Notes: generated by a model not told the origin, from the sequence alone. 64,000 bases of DNA from Verrucomicrobiota bacterium (GCA_016871715.1 VHCO01000005.1:1-64000); one strand, 5' to 3'; shown: positions 8,695-25,991, counted from the first letter of the stretch. Numbers and translations are program-made.

Positions 8695-8769
8695 TGGTGG
8701 GTTGGCAGGGACTCGAACCCTGGACCAACGGCTTAAAAGGCCGCTGCTCTACCACTGAGCTACCAACCC
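8695..8769 (-). tRNA. tRNA-Lys (anticodon TTT), CCA encoded
   Basis: Reverse strand GGGTTGGTAGCTCAGTGGTAGAGCAGCGGCCTTTTAAGCCGTTGGTCCAGGGTTCGAGTCCCTGCCAACCCACCA; 7-bp acceptor stem, D and T arms, loop CTTTTAA. Confidence 0.97.
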
Positions 8770-8851
8770 GACGCGCCCCCCACCTCGGCGGCCTTCCCAA
8801 CACCCAACACCCGAGACAATCCACCCCGGGCTAGGCCTGGGCCGCTTCCCC

Positions 8852-8884
8852 ATTCGCGTTCGCGTCCGCGTTCGCGCATTCGCG
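8852..8884. repeat. short GC-rich 6-mer microrepeat (TTCGCG/TCCGCG)
   Basis: ATTCGCGTTCGCGTCCGCGTTCGCGCATTCGCG. Confidence 0.7.
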
Positions 8885-9030
8885 ATTGGCGCGCAAGCGC
8901 CTCGGCCGCCGCGAATCGACTGGCGCCTACTATGCCGCACCCCACCGCGCCGGCAAGCGGTTTCGAGATGCCTGTCTTTAGGCTTGCGAAGATGCGCCAA
9001 CGGTGCCGTGAATCATCGGGACAGCGGTCC

Positions 9031-9825
9031 ATGCAATACTTCTGCGGCATCGACATCGGCGCGGCCACGGCCAAGCTCGTCCTCATCGATGAGCAGGGCG
9101 TGACCGTGGCCAAGGCCCTGTCGCGCTCGGGCGTCGATTACGCGAAGGCGGCCGAGCGGAACCTGGCGGAGGCACTGGGGGCGGCGAAGCTCGACCGTGG
9201 CGAAATCGCCTGCACGTTTTCGACGGGGTACGGCCGGGACAACGTGCCCTGGAGCGACGGGCGGATGACGGAGATTGCGTGTCACGGCCGTGGGGCCTGG
9301 CATTACTTGCGGGCGCGGATGACGCTGATCGACATCGGGGCGCAGGACAGCAAGGTGATTCACCTGGACGACCAGGGGCGGCGCACCAGCTTCAAGATGA
9401 ATCGGAAATGCGCCGCCGGGACGGGATCGTTTCTCGAGGAGATCGCGCTGCGACTCGCGTTGCCGGTCGAGGACTTGAACGACCTGGCCGAGCGCTCGAC
9501 GAAGGAGGTCACCCTCGGGAGTTTCTGCACGGTCTTTACTGCCACGGAGATCCTGGCCAAGATCCGCGCCGGCGAGCGGGTGGAAGACATTGTCAAAGGC
9601 GCGTTCCGCTCCGTGGTGAAGCGGATCATGGAAATGGACCTGGCTGACGGCGCGCTGGTGATGACCGGCGGCGTGGTGGCGCACAACCCGTACCTGGCCA
9701 AGCTCGTCGGCGAGGCCTTCGGGCAGCCAGTCCGCGTGCCGCCCGATGCGCAGCACATCGGGGCGTTGGGCGCAGCCCTGTTCGCGCTCGAGAAGGTCAA
9801 ATCTGGAGAAGCCTTATGCTCATAA
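9031..9825 (+). CDS. CoA-substrate-specific enzyme activase (BadF/BadG/HgdC-type ATPase)
   Basis: YFCGIDIGAATAKLVLIDEQG; STGYGRDNV; TLIDIGAQDSKVI; NRKCAAGTGSFLEEIA. Confidence 0.93.
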   Translation: MQYFCGIDIGAATAKLVLIDEQGVTVAKALSRSGVDYAKAAERNLAEALGAAKLDRGEIACTFSTGYGRDNVPWSDGRMTEIACHGRGAWHYLRARMTLIDIGAQDSKVIHLDDQGRRTSFKMNRKCAAGTGSFLEEIALRLALPVEDLNDLAERSTKEVTLGSFCTVFTATEILAKIRAGERVEDIVKGAFRSVVKRIMEMDLADGALVMTGGVVAHNPYLAKLVGEAFGQPVRVPPDAQHIGALGAALFALEKVKSGEALCS

Positions 9826-15172: not shown

Positions 15173-16663
15173 TCAGCGTAACAACAGCAGGGTCGACAGT
15201 GGCACCGAAACGATGCGCGGGTCATCCGAGCCGGGAGCATCCTCGAGGGTCACCAGAAGGCTGAACGGTGCGTGGTAGTGGGCTTTGTCCATGAAGGCCC
15301 GCAGGCCCCGGGTGTCCGCATGGTCGATGCGGCGGCGGTACTTGACTTCGACCGGGATTCGGTGTTCGCCGACCGTGAGAATGAAATCGACCTCTGGCTC
15401 GGCCGCGCGCTCCGGAAAATGATGCACCCCCAGGCCATAGATGGACTTGAAGAAGTACCCGACGGTGCTTTCGGCGATGCGACCGGCGAGATCGTGCAGG
15501 TGAGGGGCAGCGCCTAATCCTTCGGGGGTGAGGGGAATCGGCTCGCGCAGCCAGGCTGCACGCAGGGCATGGTCGCACAGGCAGAGCTTGGGCGCCCCAC
15601 GCTTGCGCTTGAGGCGCAGTTCAAGTGGCTCGATCAACCGCAGCAGCAGGGTGCCGTCCAGGAACCTCAGATATGCGAGGACACGCTGCCAGCCGAGGTT
15701 TGCCCGCAGGGAGCGCTGCAGTTCGGAAAGATAACTGCTCTGCGACGGGGACTGCCCGATGTACGTGCAACCGAGCCGAAAGACCTCGGCTAGGAGGCTC
15801 TCGTCGCGCTTTTGTCCAGGCCCCAGCCGCAGGTCGTGCTGGATGGCTCGCCGCACGACGGTCTCCGTCAGGTGCTCCGCCAGACTCTCCCAAGGTTCCG
15901 TCGGATTCACATGGGCGTAGGGATAAGCTCCGCGCTCGCTGAAAGCGGCAAACACGGCGCGGCGCAACTCTGATTGCCGCTGGCCGGAGGCCCGCAGGGA
16001 GAGCCAGACCTCCTTTTCCTTCAGCGGGGTGAGCCCGTTCTCCGGCAGGGTGGCGTCGAGCGTGCCCAGGCCCCGTACCTGACCGATCTCCCGGAGCAGG
16101 AGGGGACCCATCTCCAGCGTGCGCACCCGGCCTGCCAGACTGTCGCGCCCAGCCTCGATGCGCAGCGCCGAACTGCCGGTCACCATCGCGCGCACGCGCC
16201 CAATGTCCAGCAGGTGCTTCAGTTGCGGACCCCACTCTGCCAGGTTCTGTACCTCGTCGAGGAACACGACGAACGGCGCGGCGTCGTTCGCCGCCTGATT
16301 CATGGTCTTGCCGGCCACGTTTTCCTCGAACCACCGCAGGAGCTCGACCAGCGGCATCGAGAGTTTGCGCAGTTCGGGCAGGTCATCGAACTGAAGCCGC
16401 AGCAATCGCTGCGGGGCCAGGCCGGCCGCCAACTCGGCCGCGATCAGTTGGTTCAGCAGGGTGGTCTTCCCGATTTGCCGTGGCCCGCGCAACACCACGC
16501 AAGGCACGGTGCCTTCGCGAAGGTGCCGCTGGATCGGCTCGAAGGCCCACCGTCGCACGGGCGGCAAGCCCAGCAACGGCTCGCCGCGCCACCATGGGTT
16601 CAGGTTGCGAAGCGTCGTCTCGAGGCCCCGGGAAAGAAGCTGGAAAAGAGTCGCGTCACTCAT
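15173..16663 (-). CDS. AAA-family ATPase with DUF4143-like C-terminal nuclease-like region
   Basis: VVLRGPRQIGKTTLLNQLI (Walker A); FVVFLDEVQNLAEW (Walker B); MVTGSSALRIEAGRDSLAGR; EVDFILTVGEHRIPVEVKYR. Confidence 0.88.
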   Translation of the reverse strand: MSDATLFQLLSRGLETTLRNLNPWWRGEPLLGLPPVRRWAFEPIQRHLREGTVPCVVLRGPRQIGKTTLLNQLIAAELAAGLAPQRLLRLQFDDLPELRKLSMPLVELLRWFEENVAGKTMNQAANDAAPFVVFLDEVQNLAEWGPQLKHLLDIGRVRAMVTGSSALRIEAGRDSLAGRVRTLEMGPLLLREIGQVRGLGTLDATLPENGLTPLKEKEVWLSLRASGQRQSELRRAVFAAFSERGAYPYAHVNPTEPWESLAEHLTETVVRRAIQHDLRLGPGQKRDESLLAEVFRLGCTYIGQSPSQSSYLSELQRSLRANLGWQRVLAYLRFLDGTLLLRLIEPLELRLKRKRGAPKLCLCDHALRAAWLREPIPLTPEGLGAAPHLHDLAGRIAESTVGYFFKSIYGLGVHHFPERAAEPEVDFILTVGEHRIPVEVKYRRRIDHADTRGLRAFMDKAHYHAPFSLLVTLEDAPGSDDPRIVSVPLSTLLLLR

Positions 16664-16737
16664 GGCGTGCGGTGCTCCCGTCCCTCGACCGCCGGCAGGG
16701 CCGGCTGTCGCTGGCACTGGCAGGCGTCGTGGGGCTG

Positions 16738-16795
16738 TGCGGACGTCGCATTTCGCCAGTTGTAGCGGAAAAGGGCGCCGCGTCAAACTCCTGGG
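16738..16795 (-). promoter_or_regulatory. third diverged copy of the mod upstream/start module, 5' of the DUF4143-type ATPase
   Basis: GCGGACGTCGCATTTCGCCAGTTGTAGCGGAAAAGGGCGCCGCGTCAAACTCCTGG resembles 25927-25991 and 24036-24100. Confidence 0.5.
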
Positions 16796-19421
16796 TCAGA
16801 CTCCTGGCCGGGCAGCGTCCAGGATGGTTCTCACGTCGCCTGCTTGGCGCGCGAGCCGGAACTCCCAGTGACCATACCCCGCCTGCGCGTTGACGGCGGC
16901 GCACCACCGTTGCGCGGCCGCTTGTTTCACCTCTGCCAGCGGGTCGTGTCCCTTGGTTTCCAGGATGAGATACCGCTCCCCGGCGGTCTCGAGTCGGAGG
17001 ATGAAGTCCGGCTGGTAATCGTGCATCTGGCCATTGTGCAGGTAGGGGACGGCGAAGCCGAGCCCGGCGTTCTTCACGAAGGCGCGCACCGCCGGATGCG
17101 TGTCAATGAAATATGCCGCCTGCTGTTCCCACTTGCGCGTGTCCGCCACGACGCAGTTGACGTGTGACTTGTGGACCTCGCGCACGTCGCGGGTCGTCCA
17201 GAAATCCACCTCGCGCGTCGAGCCGGGGCCGCGCGACATCTCCAGGCGCGGAATCTCGGGCGCCTCGCCGTTGGCCGCATCGGGCCGGATGGATTCCAGC
17301 AGCACCTCGACCAGCCAGCCGTAGTAGGGCGCGAAGTGGAGGTCGCGCAAGTCGCCGGGCGGCTGCACGGCGACCTCGCTGCGCACGTAACGGTCCACAA
17401 TGGCTGCCATCTGGGGGAAGAGGACCGGTGCCGGCACTTCGCACCCGCGCTGTTGAATGAAGTCCCGGGTTAGCGTTCGAGCCACGTCGAACACCAACTC
17501 TTGCACGCGCAGTTGCGAGCGACGTTCGTTCAGGCTCACCTGATCCTCGCGGCCCGGCCCCAACAGCGAGGGACGGCCGCGGTTGTTCAGGTTCAGTCCC
17601 TTGACCTGCACTTCCGGCGGAATCTGATCGGGCTTGATCAGCACGGCGGGAATACTCCTCCAATCCACCGACACGCGATTGCGCACCGCCTGGGTGTAGC
17701 CCTCGACCCGCGGGAAACGAATCTCCAAATGCGCGCGTTCCGCCAGGGCGTGGATGTGGAACCGTTTGACGGGCGGCGGCGGCGCTCCGTCCGGGTTGGC
17801 CTTGAACGGCACGACCTCGAAGGGCACGCCGCCAGTCGAACACGACGTTGGCCAGCGCCGTGTTCTTACAGACGAGAATGAAAACCGGCGGACGCGGCTC
17901 GTCGTTCTTCTCCCAGGCCGCGCGTTCCGCTTCCCAAAGCCCGGCCAGCATTCCAATCGGCGTGTGCGCCCATTTCAGGACCGCCTCCGGCTTCGGGCTG
18001 GCGTGTTTGCCACCGCGCTCGGCGGGCGTCAGCCGGCCCGGCTGGAGAATCCAGCGCCAGATATTGAAGTAACCTGGAATCTCCGCGCCCGTCGTGTCGC
18101 GGATGGCAAGCTGCGGAATCTTCACCAGACCGGACTCGATGGCGTCCATCAGGCTGAAGTCGCTCACCACCCACGGGAATGGCCGGTTGGTTTCCTGGCC
18201 CACGCGGCCGAGGAAGTACGGCGTGGCTGACAAATCCAGGCAGAAGTTGATCCCGCGCAACTTGTGGATGCGGTCCAGCCCGTCAATCCAGACGGTGGCT
18301 TCCTTGAAAAACTCCTCCGCCTCTTCCGTCTCGCCAAAGTCCTCCTGCTCCTCCTCATCCGGAGTCTCGCGCTTGATGCGGTAGGCGTGATGCGCCTCGT
18401 CGTTCATCACCAGGAGGTTTTGTTTCCCGCCGATCTCCCGGCCCAGGAGGCGGTTGATGAGCGCCGTGTCGCTCTCCACGTAGCGGCGGCTACGGACCTG
18501 GAGCGCGTTGTCCTGTTCGGGACACCCTTTTACGACCTCGATCAAGCCGTTCTCAATCTGCTGAAGCAGCGTCTCGCGCGTCAGGAAACGCGTGCCGCGC
18601 CGCGTGTCGTTCTTCTCTCCAATGCGGATGGTTTCCGTCGTCAGCACCTCCCGCCCGCGCCTGACCACCTTGGCCGCGTCGCCGGTGGTGACGGATTGCG
18701 GCTCGAAGACGTGCCAGTTGGTGACGATGACCCGGCCCTGCCGCAACCGCTCCATGAGATGCCCCGGCACGAGATCGCGCGTGCGGTAGAGGCTGGCCTC
18801 GGCGCGCTCCGGATCGAGTTCGCAACAGCGGTCGCGGATGGTCACGTTCGGCACCACCACCAGCACGGCGTCGGAGAACCGGCCGTCGCTGCGGTCGTTC
18901 ACCTTGTTGAGGATGCTCCAGGCGGCGACCATCCCCATGACGGTTGTCTTGCCGGAGCCCGTGGCCATCTTGCAGGCGTAGCGGACGAAGCCGGCGAACC
19001 CTTCGGCCTTGCGGTCTTCGCTCGGCTCGTCGCGCGGAATTCCGAGGCCCTGCCGGAAGTCCGCCCGCGCCTCGAGCAGGAAGATGACCGTCTCCGCCGC
19101 CTCGATCTGGGCGAAGAACAGCCGCTTCTCCCGTCCTTCGCGCCGCCAGTGCTGGAGCAATTCGAGCGACGTGCGCGTCACGCCCGCATACCCGCTCTCG
19201 CGCCAGGCCTTCACGCGCTCGCGGATGCGGTTGACCAATTGCATCTCGATGGCCAGGCCACCGCGTTCGTCGGTCTCGCGCTTGGGATCGCGGTAGAAGT
19301 AAAGGGCGGGCCGGCGGCCCAGGCGGCGCTCGGCCGGCCGGCCTTCGAGAATCCACCAGTGCTCCTTCGGTTCCTCGAAAGGCGAGTTCAGGATGGGGCT
19401 GGGGACTTCGAAGTTGCTCAT
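16796..19421 (-). pseudogene. type III-like restriction subunit (Res, SF2 helicase + nuclease), internal deletion plus frameshift
   Basis: MATGSGKTTVMGMVAAW (motif I), NDEAHHAYRIK (II), LDLSATPYFLG (III) in one frame to VCKNTALANVVFDW; then frame change to GGVPFEVVPFKANPDGAPPPPVKR...PDFILRLETAGERYLILETKG; no VGRGLRR-type motif VI in either frame. Confidence 0.88.
19343..19421 (-). repeat. res 5'-end module, copy A
   Basis: 69/79 identical to 21314-21392 by hand alignment. Confidence 0.88.
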
Positions 19422-20020
19422 GGGACAGTGGCCAGCCGAATGGCCGCCAAGGCGCGGCGCAGGCTTTCGCTGCGTTGTTGTGCCCGGCTCGGGCGCCAGT
19501 GACATTCAATGAACTCAGTCATTCTCGGGGTGTAGCCTTTGCCCACGATTCCAGAACTGCCCTGCACGGGCACCAAGTCATCTCGAAGCCGGACGGACCT
19601 CGACCGCCGCGCCAAGTTCACCAGCGTCTGCTTTGGATTCGTTTCGGTGTCTGGACTTCGCGGCAGCAACGCTCCAGAGATGCGGAGGAAATCGGCAAGG
19701 GAATCATCCGCCAGAAACCAGCTTTCCAACATCCGCTCGGCAATGCGCAGAACAAAACCAGGATGCCTGGATGGTCTCAGGTGTTTGGCGAGCAGCCCGC
19801 TGGGGCACGGGAATGCCTCCAAGTCAGCCAGTCCCAGCACGGGGCCAAGTTTCGCTGCTGCGCGGTTGTAACGCGGAGCGTCTTGCCAGAAGCGAACCCG
19901 CCCGCCCTTGTCGATGGGTTGCACCCCTTCCGTGCGAGCGCCCGCCGCGGCCAGGAGTTTCAAGCTGGCGGGCACCTCCAGCGCGCCTTCGACTACCACC
20001 AGAGCGAAACCCCGCGTCAT
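19418..20020 (-). CDS. DUF4276/TOPRIM-like (RloB/AbiLii-like) protein paired with an ATPase
   Basis: FALVVVEGALEVPASLKLLAA and IAERMLESWFLADDSLADFL; 4-nt overlaps with both neighbours. Confidence 0.55.
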   Translation of the reverse strand: MTRGFALVVVEGALEVPASLKLLAAAGARTEGVQPIDKGGRVRFWQDAPRYNRAAAKLGPVLGLADLEAFPCPSGLLAKHLRPSRHPGFVLRIAERMLESWFLADDSLADFLRISGALLPRSPDTETNPKQTLVNLARRSRSVRLRDDLVPVQGSSGIVGKGYTPRMTEFIECHWRPSRAQQRSESLRRALAAIRLATVP

Positions 20021-21192
20021 ACGTTCAGCCTGTCAAAGAGAGCCATCTGCCGGGTTTCGGTTCGCGGCAACACGGCTTCGCTGGCCGTGAGACCTGCTTG
20101 CATGAGGCGCACGATCTCGCTGCGAGCCGCGCCCTCAACTACCTGTGCCCCCTCAGCAGCAGGCAGCATCAGCAGGACCTCCTCGGGCGCGATGCCGGCG
20201 TCCATCAGCAGGTGCTCGCTGTGCGTGGTGAGAATGACTTGCCGGCCTGCTCCGCCGACCTGCGCCCGGTGGATAAACGGCGCCAATCGCTTCACAATGG
20301 CAGTGTGGAGTGACAGCTCCGGTTCCTCCAGCAGCAGCGGACCGCCCGGTTCCTGAAGCGACCACAACAGGCCGATCAACCGCAGCGTTCCGTCGGAGAG
20401 TTGGCGTTCGTCTTGATAGGCCCCTTGCGGCCGCCAATGCCGGAACTTGCCTTCCAGGTGCGGTTGCCCGTGCTCGTCTATCTCCAGCCGCAAGTTCTCG
20501 AGTTGCGGTGCAACGGTCTTGAGGACCCGTTCGAGTCGTCGGAGTCGGGCCTTCTGTGTTCTGGGCGTGGTGTTGCGAATCTGATCCAGCAAGTCCCGGC
20601 CGTAAGGATCTGTGCCCAGCGTATCGCCGCGAGGAGACTGTTCCTCCCGCAACAACTGCGGCACCAAATGGAGATAGGCCACCGTGCGGAAGAAGTCTGC
20701 CAGTTCTCGGAAATCCTGATTCGCTCGCAGAACACCGATGGCCGTTTCTTTCAATCGTTCTGGGTCAGTTTCGTCCTGATTGTCCGGTCGGGCCAACTTG
20801 CGCTCCGTTTCCCCAGAGACGCGCAGGCGGTCCACCAGCTCGCGAACCACAACGGGCCGGGGATTCCGGTCGGACTCATGGGCGAAAGCCAACTCGTAGC
20901 GCCACCCGGCTCCCGCTTCATCTTTCACCACCACTCTAATCATCACGTCCGTGTTCAACCCACGCGCATACAAAGACCGAACTTTGCCCATTCCTCCGCG
21001 CTGGTTGACCGCCGGCCCTAGTCCCCCTCCCTCCAGAACGAGATCACGCAGGAAACGGAACACTTGAAGGAAGTTGGACTTGCCGATGGCGTTCGGACCG
21101 ACGATGAAGACCCGATTGGCTAGGTCCACTTCAACGCTCGTGAAATTCTTCCAGTTCTCCAGTTCAACCCGGGCAAAGCGCATTTTGTTCAT
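20017..21192 (-). CDS. AAA_21/RecF-like ATPase (RloA/AbiEii-like)
   Basis: VGPNAIGKSNFLQVFRFLRDL; DGTLRLIGLLWSL; GPLLLEEPELSLHTAIV; ILTTHSEHLLMDAG. Confidence 0.9.
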   Translation of the reverse strand: MNKMRFARVELENWKNFTSVEVDLANRVFIVGPNAIGKSNFLQVFRFLRDLVLEGGGLGPAVNQRGGMGKVRSLYARGLNTDVMIRVVVKDEAGAGWRYELAFAHESDRNPRPVVVRELVDRLRVSGETERKLARPDNQDETDPERLKETAIGVLRANQDFRELADFFRTVAYLHLVPQLLREEQSPRGDTLGTDPYGRDLLDQIRNTTPRTQKARLRRLERVLKTVAPQLENLRLEIDEHGQPHLEGKFRHWRPQGAYQDERQLSDGTLRLIGLLWSLQEPGGPLLLEEPELSLHTAIVKRLAPFIHRAQVGGAGRQVILTTHSEHLLMDAGIAPEEVLLMLPAAEGAQVVEGAARSEIVRLMQAGLTASEAVLPRTETRQMALFDRLNV

Positions 21193-21392
21193 TTCGTCTC
21201 CTCCAATTTCTTCACCACCAGCAATTCATTTCCCCTCGGGTCAATCACCTTCACGGCCACCTGGCCGTGCTCGCCGGCAGGGAAGGGGGCGCCCGGCGTG
21301 GCAGCAGGCTGATCTTCGAGAATCCACCAGTGCGCCTTCGGCTCCTCGAAGGGCGAACTCAGGATGGAACTGGGGACTTCGAAGGTGGTCAC
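21189..21392 (-). CDS. chimeric small ORF: duplicated Res N-terminus joined to a Mod C-terminus-like tail
   Basis: MTTFEVPSSILSSPFEEPKAHWWILED vs Res MSNFEVPSPILNSPFEEPKEHWWILEG; tail GEHGQVAVKVIDPRGNELLVVKKLEETK; GTG start. Confidence 0.65.
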   Translation of the reverse strand: MTTFEVPSSILSSPFEEPKAHWWILEDQPAATPGAPFPAGEHGQVAVKVIDPRGNELLVVKKLEETK

Positions 21393-21416
21393 AGGTAGTA
21401 GCGAGAGGCCGTCGGG

Positions 21417-21626
21417 TCAAGTCTTGCCAGAGGGCGGTGGTTCCTCGCGCCATGCGGCGGCGGGCTCCTTCGGCGCATGGCGTGGCACCTGCCGCACGAG
21501 CCGGTCGCCGTATTGCTTTTCCTCCTCGCGCAGCGCGGCGAAGATGCGGTGAACGTCATAGCCGTATTCGGCGGATAACTCGTCACGAATCCGCCAGATT
21601 TCCTCGATGGGATTCTCGTCTTTCAT
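21417..21626 (-). CDS. small antitoxin-like protein
   Basis: MKDENPIEEIWRIRDELSAEYGYDVHRIFAALREEEKQYGDRLVRQ; ATGA overlap with upstream ORF. Confidence 0.45.
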   Translation of the reverse strand: MKDENPIEEIWRIRDELSAEYGYDVHRIFAALREEEKQYGDRLVRQVPRHAPKEPAAAWREEPPPSGKT

Positions 21627-21907
21627 AGCTCCGGATAAGTTGCCATCAACTCAGATGGGGTGCAAAGCACGGGCAGCGACAGCCCCATCGCCGTGCAAAC
21701 GGCGGCGAGCCGGCGTTCAATCATCTTGTTCAAGATGTGCCGGCAGTTCCATGTCAGCAGGAAATCCATCTCGTGCGCAGCCGCGTAGCCAATGTGGATC
21801 GCGTCGGACGCCGCTCGCGTCGGAATCAAGCCTGCCTCGTCCCACGCCTCGCGCACGAGCCGTTGGCTCAATGGGCCGTTCTCCGGGCCGAACAGGATGG
21901 CGACGGC

Positions 21908-21941
21908 TTTGGAGTGCGGTGACTGGTCACCGCACTCCAAA
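21908..21941. repeat. perfect 16-bp palindrome with 2-nt loop inside mod ORF
   Basis: TTTGGAGTGCGGTGAC-TG-GTCACCGCACTCCAAA. Confidence 0.9.
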
Positions 21942-22343
21942 ACCGCCTCCGCGCTCAGGGCGAGGGTCTTGGCCGGAGGGCGGATGTTCTTCAACGTCAC
22001 GGTCTGGTTGCCGGGCAGGCGCAGCACGGGCGCGCGGCGCAGGACCTCCAGCATCCGCTGCACGTATTGCTCGTGGGATTCGCCCTGCATGCCGGGCGTG
22101 TCCGGTTCGGTGTCCAGGCCCTCGGCGGTGGGGATGGTGGCCTCGAAGGTGAACGGGCCGGTCACGCGCACCACGCCCTTCACGATCTCGGGCCGGTCCA
22201 CCAGCACTTCCTCGGCGGGCGGTTCGTTGTTGGCGATGCTCTTGAGCGTGATGTGCGGGACGATGCCTCCCACTTCCTCGCCCTTCTGGTTCTGTTTGCG
22301 GCGATAGACGAAGCCGTTGGCGGGGCTGTTGGGGAGCGTGCCC

Positions 22344-22414
22344 GTAGCGGCGTCTCGGCAGAGCGCCGCTGTCTCGGTAGGGGAAATGGCGGCGCTCTGC
22401 CGAGACGCCGCTAC
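22344..22414. repeat. REP-like element with perfect 26-bp inverted arms inside mod ORF
   Basis: GTAGCGGCGTCTCGGCAGAGCGCCGC (22344-22369) / GCGGCGCTCTGCCGAGACGCCGCTAC (22389-22414). Confidence 0.92.
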
Positions 22415-23807
22415 GCCGCCGACTGGGTTGATCTGGTAGTAATCGAACGTCGCGGTGAGGAGGCGCTGGCGCGCCAGCGCCAGCGGCACTCTACTGGTGT
22501 CGCAGGTGATCCAACGCCGCCCCCACTGCTCGGCTACATACGCCGTCGTTCCGCTCCCACACGTCGGGTCCAGCACCAAATCGCCGGGGTCGGTCGTCAT
22601 TAAGAGGCAGCGCTCCACGACTTTGGGGTTGGTCTGAACCACATAGAGCTTCTCCTCGTTGAAGCTACCGCTGATGGTGTCGGTCCACAGGTTGTGCGTG
22701 ATGGAGATTGGCAAATCTCCGATAAAGCTCCTGAACTGAATCGAGTTCGTGGTTGCCTGCATCCGGCCAGCCTCAGCGACGCGGTTCAAACCATCGACCG
22801 TTACCTTCCAGTGGGAGTCTGCTGGCGGGCGGCTCCGGGCGAAACGAGCGATACCAAGCGGTATCGCTTCCAGCCTTCCTCCATGACGCCTGTCTCGGAC
22901 TCCTCGCGAGTGAGAGGACGATGGGTTTTGGTGTCAGTCGAAAGCGCAAGCCGATAGAGGTCAAGCGAGTCCAAATCGGCTTTGGGTTTGAACAGTTGCC
23001 GGTATTTCACTTTTTCTTTGTGCTTGGCGTACCAGCAAAGGAAGTCGGCCACGACGGGGAGCGTGCTGCTCGTGGCGTAAGGGGCTTTCTGAACAGTGAT
23101 TATGCAGACACAATTCTCCGCCCCAAACACCTCATCCATCACTTCGCGGACGTGGTGGAGGTTTTCGTCGGAGATTTGGACGAAGATGGAGCCGGTGGGG
23201 GCGAGGAGTTCGCGGGCGAGGAGGAGGCGGTCGCGGAGGTAGGTGAGGTAGGAGTGGAGGCCCAGTTCCCAGGTGTCTCGGTAGGCCTGGACCATCTCGG
23301 GCTCGCGCGTGAGGTCGTCGTCTTCGTTATGCTTCACGTCGCGCTTGCGGATGAAGGGCTGGAAGTTCGAGCCGAACTTTACGCCATAGGGCGGATCCAC
23401 ATAGATCGTCTGCACCTGGCCGCCGAGGGACTCGAAGCGGAGGAGGGAGTTCATCACCACCAGCGAGTCGCCGAGGATGAGGCGGTTGACCCAGCGATCG
23501 CGGTGCTCGTACGCGCGCAGGACCTGGTCGGCCAGGGGCCGGTCGTGACAGGCAAAGAGGTTATTGAGGAAATCGTCCTGCTTCTCGCGGCGGTGGCCTT
23601 TGAGGGTCTCGAGGATGGCCTTGGTCGAGAGCCGTTCGTGGACAAAGAGCGGGAGGGTGGGCACGTCGAACGAGAGGCGCTCGGCTTTGCCGGACCAGTT
23701 CAGGAAAGGGCCGGAGAGGCCGCGCAGGCGGCGCCGGGCGTCGGCGATTTCGGATTTCAGATTCGCGATTTCAGAATCGCGCTGCTTGGAGGCCGGCAGC
23801 TTGGCCA

Positions 23808-23835
23808 AATCCGCAATCCGCAATCCGCAATCCGC
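23808..23835. repeat. 7-bp microsatellite (AATCCGC)x4 inside mod ORF
   Basis: AATCCGCAATCCGCAATCCGCAATCCGC. Confidence 0.9.
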
Positions 23836-24035
23836 AATTTCCGCGATCAGACGCTCGGCGGTCTCGCGGCCGGGGTTTTGTCCGTCCCAGCACAACTCCG
23901 GCGCCAGCGCAGAATCGTAGCGGTAGCTGGCTGGCGCTTTGGCCTTCTTGAAGTGGGCCTGCGTCCCGATCTCGGGGCGTGCGGCGAGGTCGGCCTCCGG
24001 ATGCCGGTAAGTCTGGGCATCCCTGGTTGGCGCGG

Positions 24036-24100
24036 CGTGCTTGCGCGGGCGTGGCATGTCGAGAGTTCTAACGCAAAAGCCGGCGGCGTCAAAGCCCTTG
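24036..24100 (-). promoter_or_regulatory. mod upstream/start module, copy M1
   Basis: About 52/65 identical to 25927-25991; minus strand contains TTTGACGCC...AACTCTCGACATGCCACGCCCGCG. Confidence 0.65.
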
Positions 24101-24143: not shown

Positions 24144-25874
24144 TCAGGCGCCCGCGCCACGGCCGACTTCTGCGATCCTGGCAAGCACCGCGCGGACCTC
24201 CGGATCGACTTCCTCGGGACCAAGATGGCGAGCGAGTTGGGCGTAGTCGGACTTGTTCATCGAGTTTGGCAGCCCCAGCTCCTTGAAGAAGCTGCCAAAG
24301 ACCGGGCGCAAGTAGTCCTCGCTCGCCTTCACGGTCCGCCACGATTCATGACGTGGGTCCCGGAGGGCCGCCGGCGCGGTGTTGTCCGTGATCGCCTTTT
24401 CCATCGCAGCTTTGCGGCGTTGCAGCTCGACGCGACCAAAAAGGTCCTCCGCGGTGACGCTCGACTCGGCCCAACGCCGCAACACCTGGGGGGCGCAGAA
24501 GTAGTTCTCGAGTTCGCGCCGGCGCCACTGCAACTCGATCAGCGCGCTTCCAGGGCGCAGGCGGATCTCGGGGCTTTGGTCGTAGAGGGCCAGACCGCGC
24601 AGCAGGGGAAAGGCCTCGCGCAAACCGAAGAAGTGAGCGCGGGCCTTATCGGGCTGGTTGAGGACGTAGTGTTGAAAAGGGCGTTCGAGGGCTCGGGCGG
24701 CCGGCGCATCGCCAACCACCTCGGCCAGGATACGGAGCGCTTCGAGGTCCGTGCTCCCTTCGAGGTAAAGCACCCAGCCGGTCACCTCGGCTTTGTAGGA
24801 TTCCTCGTAGCCCAACAGTGCCAACGCCTTGCGCAACTCGACCGGCTGCCGTACCAGGTGGGGTTGACCCACGAACGCCACGATTTGGTCTCGCTCGGCC
24901 TCGTTGAGGACCACTTCGGAATGGGTTGCCATGATCAGTTGCCCCCCGAACTCGCGGGCCGTGCGCGTCAGTTCAGCGTAGATTTGCGCCTGCCTCAGGA
25001 TCTCCAAGTGCGCATCCGGCTCGTCGATCAGCAGCACAAAACGCGGCTTCCACCGGAGAAACGTGAGCAGCAGCAAGGTCTGCTGGCAGCCGCGGCCGGC
25101 GGCGCTCAGGTCCAGGTCCGTCTTCTGGCCGCCTTCTTGATAGCTCATTTGAATCTCACCGCGCGTGGCGATGTATTCCGGCGCGTTGAGTCGCACACCG
25201 AACAGCCGTTCCATCTGTCCCACCACCCCTCCCCAGTCGCCCTCTGCCGGCTTGTCCTTCTCCCGTTCCCACACTTTCCAACAGAGGTTGCGCAAGACCT
25301 GCGCCGTTTGCGCTTCGCCCAGGGACACTTCAATCGCCCCTTCATCAATCCGCCGCTCGTTGGCCGCCAACCCCGACATGGGCGGCAAATAGGCTACGCG
25401 CACACCCGTGGCTTCCGGGGGGATGGGATTCCGCTGGTCGCCTCCCGGCGACAACCGCGCGGGCCGACAGTGGATGATCTCGTCATTCGAGTAATCGAAC
25501 TCGAGCGGACAGCGCCACGCGACACCATCCGTCACCCCTTCCACCGTGATTTCGACGAGGATGTTCTGGGTGGCCTTGCCGGCCCCGTTGGGCGCCTGAC
25601 GCAGATGCTGGTCTCGCCACAGCAGCGAGGTCTGCGGCACGGGCAACTGCACCAAGTCCCGCCGGTTGATCACCACCCCGACCCGCGCTTTAGCCTTGCT
25701 CTTGGCACCCCGTTTCTCCAGCCAGGTCCGCAGCCCCAGCTCCCACAGGGCCAGCGCCTGGAGCGCCGTGGTCTTCCCCGAGTTGTTCGGCCCAACGAAG
25801 ACCACCGGCGAACCCAACGGAACGTCCACCTCAACAAACCGTTTGAAGTTCCTAATGCGTAGTCGAGTGATCAT
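24144..25874 (-). CDS. OLD-family-like ATPase with TOPRIM-like C-terminus
   Basis: IRNFKRFVEVDVPLGSPVVFVGPNNSGKTTALQAL; LLIDEPDAHLEILRQ; IMATHSEVVLNEAERDQIVAFVG; GWVLYLEGSTDLEALRILAE. Confidence 0.87.
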   Translation of the reverse strand: MITRLRIRNFKRFVEVDVPLGSPVVFVGPNNSGKTTALQALALWELGLRTWLEKRGAKSKAKARVGVVINRRDLVQLPVPQTSLLWRDQHLRQAPNGAGKATQNILVEITVEGVTDGVAWRCPLEFDYSNDEIIHCRPARLSPGGDQRNPIPPEATGVRVAYLPPMSGLAANERRIDEGAIEVSLGEAQTAQVLRNLCWKVWEREKDKPAEGDWGGVVGQMERLFGVRLNAPEYIATRGEIQMSYQEGGQKTDLDLSAAGRGCQQTLLLLTFLRWKPRFVLLIDEPDAHLEILRQAQIYAELTRTAREFGGQLIMATHSEVVLNEAERDQIVAFVGQPHLVRQPVELRKALALLGYEESYKAEVTGWVLYLEGSTDLEALRILAEVVGDAPAARALERPFQHYVLNQPDKARAHFFGLREAFPLLRGLALYDQSPEIRLRPGSALIELQWRRRELENYFCAPQVLRRWAESSVTAEDLFGRVELQRRKAAMEKAITDNTAPAALRDPRHESWRTVKASEDYLRPVFGSFFKELGLPNSMNKSDYAQLARHLGPEEVDPEVRAVLARIAEVGRGAGA

Positions 25875-25948
25875 CTCGCCTCCTCGTGTATCCCTGCCCC
25901 CAGGTAACTCGTCCTGGCTGGCAAGGCGTGTTTGCGCGGACGCGGCAT
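25871..25948 (-). CDS. 25-aa leader ORF derived from Mod N-terminus, ATGA-coupled to the OLD-like gene
   Basis: MPRPRKHALPARTSYLGAGIHEEAR*; mod starts MPRPRKHAAPTRD. Confidence 0.55.
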   Translation of the reverse strand: MPRPRKHALPARTSYLGAGIHEEAR

Positions 25949-25991
25949 TCCTGGAGTTGTAACGCAAATGGCCGCTGCGTCAAACCCCTTG
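25927..25991 (-). promoter_or_regulatory. mod upstream/start module, copy M2
   Basis: TTTGACGCAGCGGCCATTTGCGTTACAACTCCAGGAATGCCGCGTCCGCGC on minus strand. Confidence 0.65.

Follow-up and report, generated by a model that had tools for sequence, protein, structure and literature searches.

An intact HEC-01-type ATPase and TOPRIM-like gene pair within a decayed mod–res operon of a Verrucomicrobiota bacterium

Described systems and the HEC-01 pair

Pairs of an ATPase and a TOPRIM protein that are embedded in restriction loci are often regarded as a backup that guards the host system. The closest described counterpart of the locus considered here is HEC-01. HEC stands for Hma-embedded candidate, the genes concerned lying between Hma genes, and several of these genes confer phage resistance (PMC12111858, PMC12988326, both citing the preprint by Payne et al., 2024). 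Embedding in Hma, which consists of a helicase, an m5C methylase and an ATPase, is the context in which HEC-01 was discovered, not its definition. The class 2 OLD proteins, for example those of B. pseudomallei and X. campestris (6nk8, 6njv), carry an ABC ATPase and a TOPRIM region in one chain and cleave DNA by a two-metal mechanism (PMC6755086). In PARIS, the TOPRIM tRNase AriB is held by a hexamer of the ABC ATPase AriA until the binding of a phage protein sets it free (PMC12409363); PARIS-type pairs occur inside BREX-type loci. AbiL and RloAB are also ATPase and partner pairs, and Gabija combines a single chain that carries both ATPase and TOPRIM, GajA, with the helicase GajB.

The locus lies on the minus strand of a 64,000-nucleotide stretch of DNA, here called the window, from a Verrucomicrobiota bacterium (GCA_016871715.1, VHCO01000005.1:1-64000). 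The original prediction of an ATPase gene and an overlapping partner gene at 19418-21192 is correct (Table 1): the two ORFs are co-directional and adjacent, with a 4-nt overlap that is also kept in four relatives (L002, L003, L004 and L005), and the peptides that had been singled out (GPNAIGKSNF, THSEHLLMDAG, FALVVVEGALE and LESWFLAD) are all found in the two translations. The res ORF opens with an ATG at 19421 that overlaps the stop codon of the partner ORF, and the start of the ATPase ORF is overlapped by the stop codon of a remnant of the mod C-terminus, as in intact loci. The closest relative, L002, is 77% identical in the ATPase and 86% in the partner; the approximate dN/dS of 0.08-0.09 for both genes in this comparison, a rough value because synonymous sites are near saturation, indicates purifying selection. 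Both ORFs are real genes, with close relatives, low dN/dS and matches to curated models.

The ATPase is matched by the PADLOC model for HEC-01A (PDLC04180, E=1.5e-129, residues 4-383) and by Pfam AAA_21 (4e-31), which places it in the AAA_21/AAA_15 ABC class. Its Walker A (GPNAIGKS), signature-like (SDGTLR), Walker B (LLLEEPE) and H-loop (THS) motifs are invariant across five relatives; this complete ABC set, together with the two model matches, bears out the call of an ABC-type ATPase. The AbiLi model also matches (8e-22). Weak scores with the RecF and SMC_N models would be in keeping with a housekeeping repair ATPase of the RecF/SMC type that works with an accessory protein. Such an identity is extremely improbable, given that the RecF equivalog score is 22.5 against a cut-off of 172, that the best models are those of HEC-01 and that the pair is co-located with R-M, OLD-like and PDC-S01-like genes. 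Its distribution is likewise patchy, with the partner profile found in just 9 of 388 genomes of the phylum and the pair in two of 14 sampled genomes of the family, its own genome included; a housekeeping RecF-type ATPase was rejected on these grounds.

The ATPase and the partner match HEC-01A and HEC-01B, respectively, over nearly their full length and the order of the two genes is the same. HEC-01, like this pair, is sometimes embedded in a restriction-type operon, although the host operon here, now decayed, comprised an N6/N4 methylase and a BPTD_3080-type res in place of the Hma genes, and the partner has DxE in its TOPRIM motif. A PADLOC scan of the neighbouring genes gave matches to the MTase_III and PDC-S01 models, with no Hma match among the matches listed. 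PARIS likewise has a separate, co-transcribed ABC ATPase and TOPRIM partner, but the partner here has no AriB match in the PADLOC scan. A resemblance to RloAB or AbiL had also been proposed; it extends to the AbiLi match of the ATPase but not to the partner, which has no match to AbiLii in PADLOC or to RloB or DUF4435 in Pfam. Gabija differs in that GajA is one chain, as against two ORFs here, and the neighbouring helicase is res (NF046055). The suggestion that the pair might be a distinct subtype was overstated, because the PADLOC check identifies it as HEC-01, which is already catalogued. The system is thus catalogued and the principle of embedding is published; the new elements are the decay of the host operon, the relic mod tails, the DxE clade and the finding that the slot was entered twice.

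Table 1. Features of the locus, with positions counted from the first letter of the window.
Feature	Position	Strand	Basis
AAA_14-DUF4143 ATPase, downstream of res	15173..16786	-	PADLOC PDC-S01 match
res pseudogene, C-terminal part, other frame	16796..17830	-	NF046055 positions 638-968, E=1.6e-84
res pseudogene, N-terminal part	17830..19421	-	NF046055 positions 2-481, E=2.5e-164; tblastn with L032 Res 1-440
HEC-01B-type TOPRIM-like partner (predicted nuclease), 200 aa	19418..20020	-	PDLC04194, DUF4276 link, AF2 and Foldseek, motif conservation
HEC-01A-type ABC (OLD-like) ATPase, 391 aa	20017..21192	-	PADLOC PDLC04180, Pfam AAA_21, invariant motifs
Relic of mod C-terminus	21201..21314	-	L003 mod 906-943
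Partial duplicate of res 5' end, in frame with mod tail	21303..21400	-	Alignment; repeat partner at about 19331-19424
69-aa ORF within the replaced 3' third of mod	21417..21626	-	Translation; antitoxin-like by eye only
PIN/VapC-like tail fused in frame to truncated mod	21626..21883	-	By eye
mod pseudogene, second part, other frame	21725..22828	-	L003 mod 404-786
mod pseudogene, N-terminal part (N6/N4 methylase, DPPY)	22816..24057	-	Pfam N6_N4_Mtase, MTase_III; tblastn with L003 mod 1-392
Second ABC ATPase, 607 aa, OLD-like, directly upstream of mod	24144..25967	-	Best PADLOC matches NsnB, AriA, GajA

The partner as a candidate TOPRIM nuclease

The partner is matched by the HEC-01B model (PDLC04194, E=3.7e-47, residues 1-195), to which seven further relatives score likewise. 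It had been described as a DUF4276-type protein, a description that holds only at a distance: a Pfam search with the partner itself gave no match even at E=10, DUF4276 (PF14103), RloB and DUF4435 included. Two relatives of 28-33% identity, L006 and L007, reach 26-28 bits with DUF4276 (E of 1e-5 and 4e-6), below the Pfam gathering cut-off of 30.2 bits, which more distant relatives of HEC-01B exceed. Comparison of a profile of the partner set with one of DUF4276 members (hhalign) gave a probability of 97.9 and E=3e-13, so that remote homology is seen through intermediates and through profiles.

TOPRIM domains are defined by an invariant glutamate, a glycine after strand 2 and a DxD motif, to which OLD proteins add E404, T506, E508 and K562 (PMC6755086). 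The window's partner carries E11, G40, D66-x-E68, E99 and K130. Over 19 relatives, 12 of them close, D66 and E99 are present in all; E11 is found in 18, with aspartate in the remaining one, and position 68 is D or E in 18. G40 is present in 17 and K130 in 15, the latter in all 12 close relatives, and D105 is a further nearly fixed acidic residue. By order and spacing, these residues appear to match OLD E400, D455/D457, E508 and K562, the sequence of a glutamate, DxD/E, a later glutamate and a lysine being that of class 2 OLD. DxE marks the window's clade, where it occurs in all five members; DxD occurs in the seven other close members, and the exchange is a conservative one. E15, the equivalent of OLD E404, is mainly confined to the same clade and is not family-wide. 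The order there is E-x3-E, D-x-E, E, K, with no equivalent of Thr506.

An AF2 model of the partner (mean pLDDT 76.5, pTM 0.78) has a TOPRIM-like order of strands and helices. The best five Foldseek matches in the PDB are all C-terminal nuclease regions of OLD proteins, with modest E-values (0.011-0.18), probabilities of 0.97-0.54 and TM of about 0.43. Searching PDB sequences with two profiles of the partner gave chance-level matches only, and no meaningful match was found among viral predicted structures. Both the motif set and the Foldseek matches support the prediction of a TOPRIM-like partner, and a TOPRIM fold is likely on the strength of sequence and model together. The differences from OLD are that OLD is a single chain, as against two proteins here, that the partner has DxE and lacks the threonine, and that the fold match is weak by E-value.

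The TOPRIM-like protein might alternatively be a non-catalytic subunit that binds nucleic acid or has a regulatory role, with the ATPase as the effector. The DxE in place of DxD, the variability of E15 and the low confidence with which residues 67-89, beside the presumed active site, are modelled are all compatible with such a role. Nevertheless, the near invariance of E11, D66, E/D68 and E99 over a diverse family, and the fact that nucleases are the rule as partners in OLD-ABC dyads (PMC12839542), make it quite improbable. If the partner is a nuclease, a scheme can be drawn by analogy with OLD and PARIS. The ATPase would be co-translated with the separate TOPRIM protein and, as an oligomer, would keep it inactive. 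On detection by the ATPase of an infection signal, which might be a protein of the phage or nucleic acid that the phage has altered, an ATP-dependent rearrangement would free or activate the TOPRIM subunit; this might then cleave nucleic acid, either host tRNA or DNA, in a two-metal reaction, so that phage production stops, probably by an abortive response.

A decayed host operon

The original prediction placed the pair between mod and res. Its position between mod- and res-like sequence is as described, but neither flanking gene is still intact, and the window does not contain the intact mod and res of a functional type III-like R-M system of the BPTD_3080 family. The two frames of res, which encodes a restriction endonuclease of that family (NF046055), meet at about 17830, and at the junction 155 residues have gone (441-595 of L032 Res), including QVIGRGLRR of helicase motif VI. 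A frameshift near 22820 splits mod. Where its residues 787-905 (L003 numbering) would be expected, there are instead a PIN-like tail, a 69-aa ORF and a second, incomplete copy of the res 5' end. Neither the 69-aa ORF nor the PIN/VapC-like tail has a Pfam match. Weaker matches to the tail occur on four other contigs of the same genome, and no such insert was found in the mod–res slot of the other loci examined.

The direct repeats at 21303-21400 and 19331-19424 (minus strand) are two res 5' ends; because they flank the mod tail and the pair, they suggest recombination between operon versions, and the rearranged 3' end of mod looks like the product of such an event between two versions. In the mod reading frame, around 21900 (minus strand), there is also a peptide, VLECGDQSPHSK, of which a similar form, ECGDWSPHSK, is found on the opposite strand. 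The two look like copies of a dispersed repeat inserted into coding sequence, of a type that also occurs in related bacteria. Since the source assembly is fragmented (554 contigs), the single-base frameshifts in mod and res could be errors; the loss of 155 residues from res and the replacement of the mod 3' end are unlikely to be. The host operon has decayed and the pair within it is intact.

Two further ATPase genes lie on the same strand on either side of the operon (Table 1). The C-terminal region of the 607-aa protein resembles TOPRIM by eye (LYLEGSTDLEAL, ALYDQS and RRRELENYF). The stretch comprising this gene, the pair, the R-M remnants and the PDC-S01-like gene looks like a small one-strand defence cluster.

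Relatives and the mod–res slot

The contexts of the pair were compared in 16 loci, the window included. The pair lies directly 3' of this type of mod in four; the mod tail alone remains before it in two, another R-M gene adjoins it in two and it stands alone in eight, so that 10 loci, counting the two with relics only, have no adjoining R-M gene. The order mod, pair, res is intact in L003 (Planctomycetales), whose contig breaks off near the start of res, and in L032, from the same class as the window; in L005 (WOR-3), mod and the pair are intact and the contig ends at the partner, with res beyond view. In L002 and L004, a frayed mod tail precedes the pair. The pair of L033 is 3' of a type IIG-like methylase and that of L035 is 5' of a type III-like mod. 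L031, L034, L036, L037 and L089-L092 have no R-M neighbour in the stretch examined around the pair; the ATPase of L092 appears to be frameshifted. Neither plasmid nor phage collections yielded a relative of the partner, plasmids searched at 1e-20 yielded none of the ATPase either, and viral contigs contained no relative.

Two of these loci have additional features. In L002, an intact gnd lies upstream of the pair and a partial copy of its 3' end downstream (L002:5946-6508 and 8766-9413; 93-94% identical), as if a pair-bearing island had integrated at gnd. The gene adjoining the standalone pair of L004 (L004:8686-11151) has DndB-like and Schlafen AlbA_2-like matches, that to AlbA_2 being below the Pfam cut-off.

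In a tree of the ATPase, the window and L002, L003, L004 and L005 form one clade (99/99), and L032 falls in a separate clade (99/97) with standalone loci. Because the embedded loci thus belong to two supported clades, the pair entered the mod–res slot at least twice. This, together with an intact pair in a broken operon and the absence of an R-M neighbour from most relatives, is why the pair seems to be an autonomous cassette, one that has outlived its host operon. We consider it probable that it is a HEC-01 defence module, composed of an OLD-family ABC ATPase and a separate TOPRIM nuclease and triggered by infection, which has occupied the slot at least twice as an autonomous cassette. Alternatively, the pair might be an obligate guard of the host R-M system, which senses its inhibition or loss, for example through a phage anti-restriction protein, and kills the cell. 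Evidence for this includes how tightly the pair sits in the operon in the window, L003 and L005, all with overlaps of 4 nt, the response of PARIS to Ocr and the proposal that similar modules are backups in BREX loci (PMC12839542). Against it, mod and res are broken in the window and the pair is not, so that loss of the R-M enzymes is evidently tolerated, and the persistence of the pair in the 10 loci without an adjoining R-M gene, two of which retain a mod relic only, weakens it further. A guard role is thus unlikely.

NF046055 has matches in 32 of 289 genomes of the phylum; upstream regions were examined in 20, in six of which this mod is upstream of res, and L032 brings the number to seven. 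The two genes abut in two (L081 and L083) and cargo lies between them in five: HEC-01 (L032), an ABC ATPase with a 180-aa partner whose start is PIN-like by eye (L074), a DUF1828 protein with another ORF (L075), a PadR-like ORF with a further stretch (L078) and a Fic protein (L080). The slot is variable, since the cargo differs among genomes, and this fits the idea of 'guilt by embedding' (PMC12988326) as well as the backup OLD-ABC effectors of BREX loci (PMC12839542). It is possible, though we put it forward only tentatively, that the slot serves as a permanent bay for autonomous defence or toxin modules that can replace one another, and that selection keeps this cargo and not the R-M enzyme. 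The DxE clade of HEC-01 would then have entered this bay, spread with it between phyla and persisted at least twice after loss of the R-M genes and once during their decay, and its DxE site would point to a nuclease that has a substrate or trigger of its own.

That HEC-01 acts alone is argued by an intact pair in a broken operon, by the two relatives that retain only scraps of mod and by the R-M-free majority of its relatives. The choice between a guard and an autonomous cassette thereby becomes directly testable, and structure-function work on the TOPRIM site can draw on variants that naturally carry DxE.
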